A DNA stretch of 64,000 bases, from contig CAJOJA010000003.1 of the NCBI GenBank assembly GCA_905234735.1, positions 62,001 through 126,000 on the forward strand, in the 5' to 3' direction. A model generated the notes under the pieces. That model had not been told where the DNA came from. It worked only from the letters and a program-made list of their open reading frames with translations, and made no database searches. The translations under genes were made by a program, and so were the position numbers. The stretch comes from an uncultured Bacteroidaceae bacterium. Its GTDB lineage: Bacteria; Bacteroidota; Bacteroidia; Bacteroidales; Bacteroidaceae. This document shows, piece after piece, positions 34,453-63,549 of the stretch; position 1 is the first letter of the stretch; the number at the start of each line of letters is the position of its first letter.

Positions 34453-35976
34453 ATGAGTGTAATATTGATTAAGACCCTGCAACTGCTCGTGTGTCTGTCG
34501 TTGCTCGTGGTGCTGCACGAAGGCGGACATTTTGGGTTTGCCAAGCTGTTCAAGACCCGTGTGATGCGTTTCTATATGTTCGCCAACTGGGGTTTCCACC
34601 TCTTCAGCTCCTACGATAACTGGTTTCGTCGTCTATGCGGCAAACCGCTTATCACCAAACGTGGAGAGGAGGGGAATAACTTCTTTGCCAGGTTGCGCAA
34701 TTTCTTCTACAGACTGACTGGTCAGAACGATAAAATCCAAACCGAAGGCCTTGGCAATAAGGAGTACGACCCAGAGGCCGGTACGGAGTACGGTATCGGC
34801 TGGTTGCCCATTGGTGGTTACGTGGCCATAGCTGGAATGATTGACGAGACGAACCAGAAACTGTCCGGCGAGCCGCAACCCTGGGAATTCCGTTCGAAGC
34901 CTGTGTGGCAGCGTTTCTTCATCATGGTTGGCGGTGTGCTCATGAATCTTATCACAGCCTTCGTGATCTACTGTGGCATCATGTTTTTCGTAGGCGAAGA
35001 CCGCTTACCCATGCGAAATGTCACGCGCGGTTTCGCCTTCAATCCCGAGGCCGAGGCACTGGGTTTTCGCGATGCTGATATCCCCATCCGGGCCGATGGC
35101 GAAGAACTGGGCGCGTGGGGCGGACAGGTGCTGCGCGACTTGACCGATGCCCGAGTAGTAACTGTGCTTCGCGAGGGTAGGGAAGTTGATTTGACTATGC
35201 CCGACGAACGCCCCGATTTGTTGCAAGTGATGAAGATGCAACCAGCCTTTCTGGCCCCTGTTTCTGTGGCCCTGGTGGACAGCGTCTTGACTGATGGACC
35301 TGCTGGAAAAGCTGGCATGCAAGCGGGAGCGCGCCTGTTGGCTGTCGACGGAACGGACATCCGCTACTGGAACGATTACGATTCGCTCTACCTGCGCCGT
35401 CAGGATGTGTTGGCGATGAAGGGATGCAGTCATGCCGATAGTCTACGTATGCGCCGTATGCAACTTGTCTTCCTCAATCCTGATGCAGCTTCGCCCGATA
35501 CCGTTTCGTTGCTTCTCGACGATAACTATATGATGGGCCTTATCCGCCATATCGACCTCTTGGACTATGAGGTGGAGCACATCGACTATTCGCTGCTTAC
35601 CTGCATCCCTGCGGGCCTGAAGCTGGGTTGGAGCACTCTTTCAAACTACGTGGGCGACATGAAGTATGTTGCTACGAAAGAGGGAGCGCAAGAGGTGGGC
35701 TCGTTCATCGCCATCGGCAATCTCTTCCCCGAATCTTGGGACTGGTTGCGCTTTTGGATGATGACCGCCATGCTCAGCATCGTGCTGGCTGTGATGAACA
35801 TTCTGCCCATTCCTGGGCTGGATGGTGGACATGTAGTCATTCTGCTCTACGAGGCCATTACGGGTCGCCAACCCAGTGAACGGGTGATGGTATGGCTCGA
35901 ATATATTGGTATGGGTTGCCTTATCGCCTTGATGCTGTTGGCCTTTGGTAATGATTTCCGTCGCTTTATACTATAA
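34453..35976 (+). CDS. rseP: RIP metalloprotease RseP
   Basis: HEGGHFGFAK zinc motif, PDZ region, NILPIPGLDGGHVVILLYEAI. Confidence 0.94.
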   Translation: MSVILIKTLQLLVCLSLLVVLHEGGHFGFAKLFKTRVMRFYMFANWGFHLFSSYDNWFRRLCGKPLITKRGEEGNNFFARLRNFFYRLTGQNDKIQTEGLGNKEYDPEAGTEYGIGWLPIGGYVAIAGMIDETNQKLSGEPQPWEFRSKPVWQRFFIMVGGVLMNLITAFVIYCGIMFFVGEDRLPMRNVTRGFAFNPEAEALGFRDADIPIRADGEELGAWGGQVLRDLTDARVVTVLREGREVDLTMPDERPDLLQVMKMQPAFLAPVSVALVDSVLTDGPAGKAGMQAGARLLAVDGTDIRYWNDYDSLYLRRQDVLAMKGCSHADSLRMRRMQLVFLNPDAASPDTVSLLLDDNYMMGLIRHIDLLDYEVEHIDYSLLTCIPAGLKLGWSTLSNYVGDMKYVATKEGAQEVGSFIAIGNLFPESWDWLRFWMMTAMLSIVLAVMNILPIPGLDGGHVVILLYEAITGRQPSERVMVWLEYIGMGCLIALMLLAFGNDFRRFIL

Positions 35977-61156: not shown

Positions 61157-61720
61157 CTATTTCCTCAGTTTGCCTTTACTTTCCAGATATTTAGTGAAGG
61201 TCTCCCACTGTGCAGCTCGTTTTATACGGTTGGCTTGCACACGCTCGTCATTGATAAACTGAAGGGGGTAGCAGTCGTAGAGATGGTAGTGACCGTCATC
61301 GATTACTTCACCGTCAATCTTTCCGCAGCAGAGTACGAGGTCATCGAATATTTGGTTACAGATGAGACCGACGTGGGTAGCTCCGCCAGAAAAGAGGTAT
61401 TCGCCACTTAGGTAGAAGTCGACCCCGGCAAGCAATGGTATTGTTTCACGCAGCGGCCCCATCGTGTCGCGGAAGCGTATTTCACGGGTATTCACGTCGA
61501 ACCACAGGATATCATCCTCCGAAAAAAGTGCATTATGAGTATCCTCGATTGAGCGAGTCCCTGAAGAACTAATACCATAGGCATAAAGTGTTGAGGACTC
61601 AACAGGATCGGTCGTGGAAGGCTTCTCTGTCACTTCGTCGTCACTGCCGCACGCAGTCATCGACATACAGGCAATGGCTATCGCCACTGTCCAAATACTG
61701 TTCTTGATAATCTTCTTCAT
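61157..61720 (-). CDS. Predicted lipoprotein with surface-export-like N-terminus; unknown function
   Basis: MKKIIKNSIWTVAIAIACMSMTACGSDDEVTEKP lipobox followed by acidic SDDE. Confidence 0.75.
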   Translation of the reverse strand: MKKIIKNSIWTVAIAIACMSMTACGSDDEVTEKPSTTDPVESSTLYAYGISSSGTRSIEDTHNALFSEDDILWFDVNTREIRFRDTMGPLRETIPLLAGVDFYLSGEYLFSGGATHVGLICNQIFDDLVLCCGKIDGEVIDDGHYHLYDCYPLQFINDERVQANRIKRAAQWETFTKYLESKGKLRK

Positions 61721-61768: not shown

Positions 61769-61795
61769 GTCCGTCGAACATTGAAAAGACTGCAC
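61769..61795 (-). promoter_or_regulatory. Putative ECF-type promoter element upstream of lipoprotein gene
   Basis: Minus strand GTGCAGTCTTTTC-N9-CGGAC, identical 13-mer to the element upstream of the sigma fusion gene. Confidence 0.6.
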
Positions 61796-61798
61796 CGA

Positions 61799-63505
61799 TT
61801 ACCAGGTAAATCTAATTCCCAAGGGCAAAGAGAACGTAAATGGATGCTCTGTGCGATAGGTTTCAACGTTGCTGCCTGTCGGGATATAATATTGCAGGCT
61901 TGGCTCTGCAAACAATCCGATGTTGGGCGTGAATTTGTATTGCAGGCCGAGGCCCGTGCCGACCGACCACTGCCACGGAGCACGGAAGGTAGTCTTGTCG
62001 GTAGCCTCCAATATGCCATGCAAGTAGTAACTTGTATTGAACGTCGAGTGAACGGGGATTTCCATCGTCAGTCCGAGACTGCCGTAGAGACTCCACGCCT
62101 TTCTGTTGTATATGCTGTAGATGCCCTTCACGGGGATGCCGAGGTAATGGATGGTCTGCTGTTCGTTGATGGTGTTGCCGTTTGAGCCCATCTCAAACTC
62201 AGACCTTATCCGACTATAGTTCAACCCGGTCTCCAGCGCGAAGCGATGATCCAGTCTATACTTCAACGCCAACGAGAAGTTAATGGGCATGTAGTGGTGA
62301 CTCTTTCGGATAATCTTATCTGCGCCTGTACCTGGGGCATCGCCTGCATTGTTCAGGGCAATGTTCATGATGACGCTGCGAGTATGACTATTGCCATTGT
62401 CGGGATTGTCGGCTAAGAAGGCTGCATAGTCGCTCCAGTTCTCGAAAGTGACAGGCGATGGCGGTTCACCAGAGATGGCTAACGTCGGTGTTTCCGTGAA
62501 GCTGTATGGGCGGCTCGCATTTTGCTCACCCATGCCTCCGGCGTATGCGAGGTCTATTGACCACCTTTGCTTATTGCGGGGTCTGATGACCGGTTTGTCG
62601 GGGAACAAGTCGGCAATGTTGTAATGAGGCAGATTCAGCTTATCTATAATATGTGTCGTATCTGCTTGTTCGTTATTCTTTATTGTGTCTGGAGTAGTCT
62701 GCTCCTGTGCAATCATCTTTGCCAAGGAGTCCGGCATAATGGAATCAAGAGTCTGGGCAATGACTGGCTGGAGCGTATCAATCGGCGTATGATGTACTGG
62801 GATATGTACAATTACAGGTTCTTGTGCCTGTTCTGTTGATGGTTCATTTGTCTGTGTTTTTTGCTTAGGCGTATCTTTCTGCTTGGCAATGGCGGGCTTT
62901 TCTTTGATTGTGATATCTTCTTTTTTGAGTAGAAAAAACGTTAAGGGGATGAGCAACAACAAAAGTACCGCCCAATACTGCTGCATCATCTTGCGGAGTA
63001 TCTTCTTGGCCCGCGCCAATTGCGACGATGAAGAATGAGGTTCAATGCCCAGCATTTCTGCAATCTCCTTGTGCGACATACCTTCAAAAACTGAAAGTCG
63101 GAACACCTTGCCATATCCCTCCGGCAACTTGTTTATCAGCTTCAACACTTCTTCCAATGGAACACCTTTCACACTGGCCTCTTCATTAGGAGCTACCAAC
63201 GACTCTGTTTCCTCCCATGGAACGAAGGAAAGACTTTTCAGATGGTCTTTGTATTTCGATGCTACGTTTCGTGTAATCGACATCATCCATGATTCAGCCT
63301 TTCGATTGTCTCGCAAACGGTCAAACGAAGTAAAGATAATTACAAAAGCATCGTGCAACACATCATCCACCGCCTGTTCGTCACTGACATACCGACGGCA
63401 CACGCCCCTCATTCTCTGGGCGTATGCCTTGTACAGTTCTCCGAGCGCATCTGCATCGCCCTGTCTGCATCGTTCTATCAGCCGTGTAACTTCCATCGAA
63501 AACAT
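61799..63505 (-). CDS. ECF sigma factor - TM helix - periplasmic linker - outer membrane beta-barrel fusion protein
   Basis: Sigma region 2 AVDDVLHDAFVIIFTSFDRLRDNRKAESWMMSITRN and region 4 LINKLPEGYGKVFRLSVFEGMSHKEIAEMLGIEPHSSSSQLARAKKILRKM (aa 4-173); TM WAVLLLLLIPLTFFLL (aa 178-193); Pro/Thr/Gln/Lys-rich linker; barrel aa 313-568 ending FSLPLGIRFTW. Confidence 0.9.
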   Translation of the reverse strand: MFSMEVTRLIERCRQGDADALGELYKAYAQRMRGVCRRYVSDEQAVDDVLHDAFVIIFTSFDRLRDNRKAESWMMSITRNVASKYKDHLKSLSFVPWEETESLVAPNEEASVKGVPLEEVLKLINKLPEGYGKVFRLSVFEGMSHKEIAEMLGIEPHSSSSQLARAKKILRKMMQQYWAVLLLLLIPLTFFLLKKEDITIKEKPAIAKQKDTPKQKTQTNEPSTEQAQEPVIVHIPVHHTPIDTLQPVIAQTLDSIMPDSLAKMIAQEQTTPDTIKNNEQADTTHIIDKLNLPHYNIADLFPDKPVIRPRNKQRWSIDLAYAGGMGEQNASRPYSFTETPTLAISGEPPSPVTFENWSDYAAFLADNPDNGNSHTRSVIMNIALNNAGDAPGTGADKIIRKSHHYMPINFSLALKYRLDHRFALETGLNYSRIRSEFEMGSNGNTINEQQTIHYLGIPVKGIYSIYNRKAWSLYGSLGLTMEIPVHSTFNTSYYLHGILEATDKTTFRAPWQWSVGTGLGLQYKFTPNIGLFAEPSLQYYIPTGSNVETYRTEHPFTFSLPLGIRFTW

Positions 63506-63523: not shown

Positions 63524-63549
63524 GTCCGATAATCACGAAAAGACTGCAC
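63524..63549 (-). promoter_or_regulatory. Putative ECF-type promoter element upstream of the sigma fusion gene
   Basis: Minus strand GTGCAGTCTTTTC-N8-CGGAC ending 19 nt before the ATG at 63505. Confidence 0.6.

Follow-up and report, generated by a model that had tools for sequence, protein, structure and literature searches.

How is an ECF sigma factor controlled when it appears to be made as one chain with a membrane helix and an outer-membrane barrel? This question is raised by a gene in the window, i.e., the whole 64-kb stretch of DNA analysed here, from an uncultured Bacteroidaceae bacterium. Reading of its open reading frames placed a single uninterrupted ORF of 568 codons at 61799-63505 on the minus strand, while the plus strand across these positions is filled with stops. 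The original prediction thus had the ORF and its coordinates right, and the strand is corrected here.

Domain layout of the fused protein

The encoded protein has 568 aa and starts with MFSMEV; Met4 may be the conserved start. Sigma region 2 (aa 24-85; 63251-63436, minus strand as all features below) matched PF04542 (Sigma70_r2, 1.1e-10), and sigma region 4 (aa 118-169; 62999-63154) matched PF08281 (Sigma70_r4_2, 8.6e-15). The latter carries the clade-specific motif IEPHSSSSQLARAK, which is near-invariant over 47 homologues. The C-terminal part matched the barrel families OMP_b-brl_2 (8.4e-13, aa 406-529) and OMP_b-brl (5.8e-7; PF13568/PF13505). All of these Pfam matches exceed the curated cut-offs, as does the match to TIGR02937 (2.2e-21), so that the HMM check proposed for the sigma and barrel parts came out in favor of both. 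Judged by Pfam and TIGR02937, the protein contains regions 2 and 4 only and lacks regions 1.1 and 3, as is typical of ECF sigma factors.

Between these parts lies a single TM helix at about aa 177-195 (62921-62977), as indicated by hydrophobicity and by a helix modelled over residues 156-197; the most hydrophobic 19-mer of the protein begins at aa 175. A single helix had been predicted correctly, with its limits (aa 178-193) set slightly too narrow. It is followed by a disordered tether rich in K, P, T and Q (aa 196-312; 62570-62920; pLDDT <50 over aa 194-311), whose length ranges from 101 to 142 residues among 99 fused homologues. The outer-membrane β-barrel (aa 313-568; 61802-62569) ends in FTW and harbors a helical insertion at aa 357-388.

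The AlphaFold2 model, built from 47 homologues, shows the sigma helices, the continuous helix 156-197 that unites the end of region 4 with the TM segment, disorder over residues 194-311 and a β-barrel at 315-568, the C-terminal barrel that the original prediction had called for. Its mean pLDDT of 70 and pTM of 0.45 mean that the placement of the domains relative to each other is not predicted; such modest global confidence is what a flexible connection between the domains would lead one to expect. A Foldseek search against the PDB returned sigmaE, AlgU and SigW for the N-terminal half, region 2 included, and barrels of the OmpA/OmpT class for the C-terminal half, while a PDB search by sequence matched the sigma half only. 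Pfam, AlphaFold2 and Foldseek therefore agree on the single-chain arrangement proposed at the outset. On sequence and model, the protein is a rumen Prevotella-type sigma factor that continues, in one chain, into an inner-membrane helix, then a long tether and finally an outer-membrane barrel, with the sigma part presumably in the cytoplasm and the barrel in the outer membrane.

Conservation and origin of the fusion

A scan of genome contigs yielded 67 homologous loci in Prevotellaceae and Bacteroidaceae assemblies, chiefly MAGs from the rumen and other ruminant guts. In 60 of them the fusion is whole. Of the other seven, L049, L057, L061 and L063 are truncated at contig ends, and L001, L039 and L066 are disrupted or altered. 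Against six relatives, dN/dS ranged from 0.02 to 0.31 in the two sigma domains, in the linker and tether and in the barrel; for the TM segment it was mostly not computable. The entire frame, tether included, is thus under purifying selection. Matches at E<=1e-40 were obtained in 66/251 genomes of the family, representing 16 of 30 genera; nearly all are full-length fusions, and a few are broken or partial. The fused clade extends to a Bacteroides-like genus (g2), and, among 393 genomes across the order, fusions occur in further Bacteroidales families (G357, G221, G365 and G377).

That the gene is a non-functional relic or an assembly join of two genes therefore has a negligible chance of being true. 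A few broken homologues would fit such a reading (L001 has an early internal stop, and L101 and L102 carry frameshifts), but the 60 intact loci already refute it, as do the low dN/dS in all measurable regions and the conserved promoter described below. Likewise, the intact loci and the matches in family genomes rule out an assembly or sequencing error, a concern raised beforehand, and the survey of relatives establishes the fused architecture as an old and widespread family, judged by its sequences. The frameshifts of L102 (G059) and L101 (G302) fall after the TM segment, and L102 adjoins a transposase-like gene.

In a tree of the sigma domains, 35 fused sigmas fall on one side of a single branch (99/97) and 22 split sigmas, encoded by genes of their own, on the other (94/97), the root resting on long-branched outgroups. 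One fusion event explains the sampled data, and many independent fusions are ruled out for this set, in which the tree shows one change.

Relation to the Dma family and to anti-sigma factors

The original prediction named the Dma (dual membrane-spanning anti-sigma) proteins of Bacteroides thetaiotaomicron as partners of a separately encoded sigma factor. Novelty of the fusion is not supported: Dma3 of B. thetaiotaomicron is described as carrying a sigma domain at its own N-terminus (Pardue 2024 PNAS, cited in PMC13088901), so the envelope-spanning fused architecture has been briefly reported before. By its description, Dma3 (BT_2778-2779) resembles the fused protein in its N-terminal sigma domain, its span across both membranes and the lack of an adjacent cognate sigma gene. 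The fused protein itself shows the layout of the Dma family (a single TM helix, a long disordered tether and a C-terminal β-barrel) and the Dma3-type combination of an N-terminal sigma domain with no cognate sigma gene next to it. In contrast to Dma3, the neighbors of the fused family vary between a lipoprotein, a radical SAM protein plus oxidoreductase, and a methyltransferase. Deletion of dma3 left vesiculation unaltered in dma1 or dma2 mutants (PMC13088901), and BT_2778, annotated as a sigma-70 factor, was ~2.3-fold up under iron limitation (PMC10434189).

A TM helix, disordered tether, C-terminal barrel and related ECF sigma are likewise found in Dma1/Das1, Dma2/Das2, the EcfO pair of B. 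fragilis and M0N98_03760-61 of P. vulgatus; in these, however, the sigma and the anti-sigma factor are encoded separately, and an anti-sigma domain begins the membrane protein (PMC13088901, PMC9308784). A split pair was induced by a bacterial toxin via probable envelope stress, and O-antigen was lengthened (PMC9308784). Most Bacteroidales genomes also encode related sigmas as separate genes, and the nearest split sigmas sampled neighbor Dma-like proteins. At L069, L108 and L110, the sigma gene adjoins a barrel protein with an N-terminal anti-sigma region of its own. In such split membrane proteins, a cytoplasmic anti-sigma region of ~50 aa precedes the TM helix, whereas the fused proteins have none: the N-terminal domain of the Dma1/Dma2 type is absent, and the TM helix follows region 4 after ~7 residues. 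An anti-sigma domain hidden between the two is ruled out by sequence and spacing. The sequences thus add two features to the family, namely the missing anti-sigma domain and the direct junction of sigma region 4 with the membrane helix, from which a mechanism of control different from that of Dma1 and Dma2 is expected.

At L108 (1495-3270), split sigma and anti-sigma genes lie in one frame with one stop codon and a few codons between them, an arrangement that may yield a fusion by read-through or illustrate how fusions start. The genome of the window also has a split sigma/Dma-like pair (L069, contig C14), which is divergent from a serpin-like gene.

An unlinked anti-sigma factor, e.g., the Dma-like protein of the C14 pair, might silence the fused sigma, with the fusion mainly setting its location. 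We give this only an outside chance. The pair does reside in the same genome, and the dma3 locus is up in dma1 and dma2 mutants, which suggests cross-talk (PMC13088901); such cross-talk is, however, equally explicable as transcriptional. Moreover, the fused clade has diverged from the split sigmas in sigma regions 2 and 4, and no anti-sigma gene was found beside any fused gene examined, that of the window included.

The distance from His157 to Tyr177 is exactly 21 residues, with no indel, in 99/99 aligned fused proteins. Such rigid spacing of recognition helix and TM segment would be needed for mechanical coupling, as in a sigma that stays active at the membrane in the manner of the membrane transcription activators ToxR or CadC, the barrel acting on the cytoplasmic domain through its conformation or clustering rather than through cleavage. 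The spacing is no more than suggestive, since part of it comes from the conserved region 4 helix, which could account for it altogether. This reading also gains from the fact that no protease site was identified, but a sigma factor must join RNA polymerase and leave again after initiation, and region 4, only ~20 residues off the bilayer, should be hindered in meeting the polymerase. Furthermore, the characterised fused membrane sigma IutY, in which the sigma is fused to its membrane anti-sigma, is freed by Prc and RseP (PMC8999054). Overall, we regard activity in the membrane-bound state as unlikely.

IutY (ECF243, Pseudomonas putida) and the groups ECF48/52/53 share with the fused protein an ECF sigma with a C-terminal membrane segment, but have an anti-sigma-like domain and lack an outer-membrane barrel on the same chain (PMC8999054). 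Pro-sigmaK of Bacillus subtilis is likewise made in an inactive form bound to the membrane, from which an intramembrane protease cuts it (PMC6242693). It differs in its N-terminal pro-sequence, its Gram-positive host, its non-ECF class and the lack of a sensor domain.

Promoters, candidate targets and proposed mechanism

Upstream sequences of almost every fused gene contain an ECF-type element, TGCAGTCTTTTC-N8-10-GGAC-TATA. Across all lineages, with positions measured from the aligned start codon, TGCAGTC, the -35 element of the promoter TGCAGTCTTTTC-N8-10-GGACTATA, was counted upstream of 87/93 fused genes vs 2/34 split sigma genes. Among 62 Prevotella-type loci, 59 have TGCAGTC at -42 to -45 (~43 nt upstream of the start codon), where 0.007 is expected per search window. 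In the window, the promoter of the fused gene, TGCAGTCTTTTCGTGATTATCGGAC, is located at 63524-63548, and a second copy, TGCAGTCTTTTCAATGTTCGACGGAC, precedes the next gene at 61769-61794 (both minus strand).

The -10 element varies by lineage, being GGACTATA in Prevotella types and CTATCATAT or ATATC in the Bacteroides-like genus, and its change parallels differences in sigma region 2. The -35 element and region 4 (IEPHSSSSQL.RAK) stay constant across lineages while it changes. Such a pattern would follow from recognition of its own promoter by each fused sigma, although it is a correlation only. The promoter of the fused clade and its lineage-dependent -10 element are, as judged from upstream sequences, new here.

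The promoter also precedes the next gene in 54/67 loci. In the window this predicted target gene (61157-61720, minus strand) encodes a putative lipoprotein of 187 aa with an invariant A23-C24 lipobox, for which no Pfam or NCBIfam family over cut-off and no significant PDB fold was found; its family shares the motif F.EDDI.WFDVNTRE. The fused sigma apparently activates both its own gene and the lipoprotein gene next to it. The strict motif has three matches in the 2.95 Mb of the window's genome, before the fused gene, before the lipoprotein gene and inside a coding region. A relaxed motif with up to three mismatches gave 30 sites vs 22 for the reversed control, so that no further site in this genome is credible and a larger regulon there is ruled out; the regulon may be tiny. 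Strict-motif counts per genome did not separate fused from non-fused genomes and are uninformative, as control counts were equally high; location alone separates the two.

In many relatives, the promoter also lies before a radical-SAM/SPASM gene (PF04055, PF13186) that is followed by a GFO/IDH/MocA oxidoreductase gene; a radical-SAM partner was not matched in the window's own genome (assembly 87% complete). At L063, L022 and other loci, this promoter copy (TGCAGTCATTCGTTGCAATTTTGGACTTTATAAG...) contains an inverted repeat, ATTCGTTGCAATT ... AATTGCAACGAAT, one arm of which sits between -35 and -10; the repeat resembles an operator at which a second regulator would act. Several Bacteroides-like genomes have a class I methyltransferase gene after the fused gene. 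One genome, G221, has promoter copies with near-identical spacers before a C10 peptidase operon and before an OmpH/Skp chaperone gene, the latter followed by acyltransferase and FKBP genes (L186:565-3017). This target set hints at envelope maintenance, akin to an envelope-stress regulon. The recurrence of this promoter before genes for the lipoprotein, for radical-SAM proteins and, in one genome, for Skp is a further addition suggested by these sequences.

Starting from the computed architecture, conservation, single origin, missing anti-sigma domain and shared promoter, we infer a membrane topology, an off-state, a signal and a release. The protein is probably an autoregulated sigma factor of the Dma3 type that is kept at the inner membrane, linked by its tether to a sensor in the outer membrane and freed by proteolysis; the Dma1-3 proteins are precedents for the layout, and IutY is one for RseP-dependent release of a fused sigma (PMC8999054). 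The N-terminal ECF sigma would lie in the cytoplasm, its TM anchor directly prolonging the region 4 helix that recognizes DNA, and the tether of ~118 disordered residues would span the periplasm to the barrel. At rest, anchoring would make the sigma unable to cooperate with RNA polymerase. Once the barrel senses a disturbance of itself or of the tether, cleavage would follow in the tether and then, by an RseP-type protease, in the TM helix. The freed sigma would direct transcription from the TGCAGTCTTTTC-N-GGACTATA promoters of its own gene and of the neighboring lipoprotein gene, in a positive feedback. The M50 protease gene predicted at 34453-35976 is indeed present, unlinked and of housekeeping type. 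More tentatively, we could picture the recognition helix near the inner membrane as the off-switch that replaces an anti-sigma factor, outer-membrane stress (pull on the tether or its loss) as the on-switch, and the sigma's own promoter as the amplifier.

Dma3 has hitherto been described in one sentence; the fused family now has a clade, a testable promoter and candidate targets. If the proposed mechanism is true, outer-membrane sensing would be wired directly to a sigma factor, an exceptionally short signalling route in bacteria that are common in the rumen and gut.
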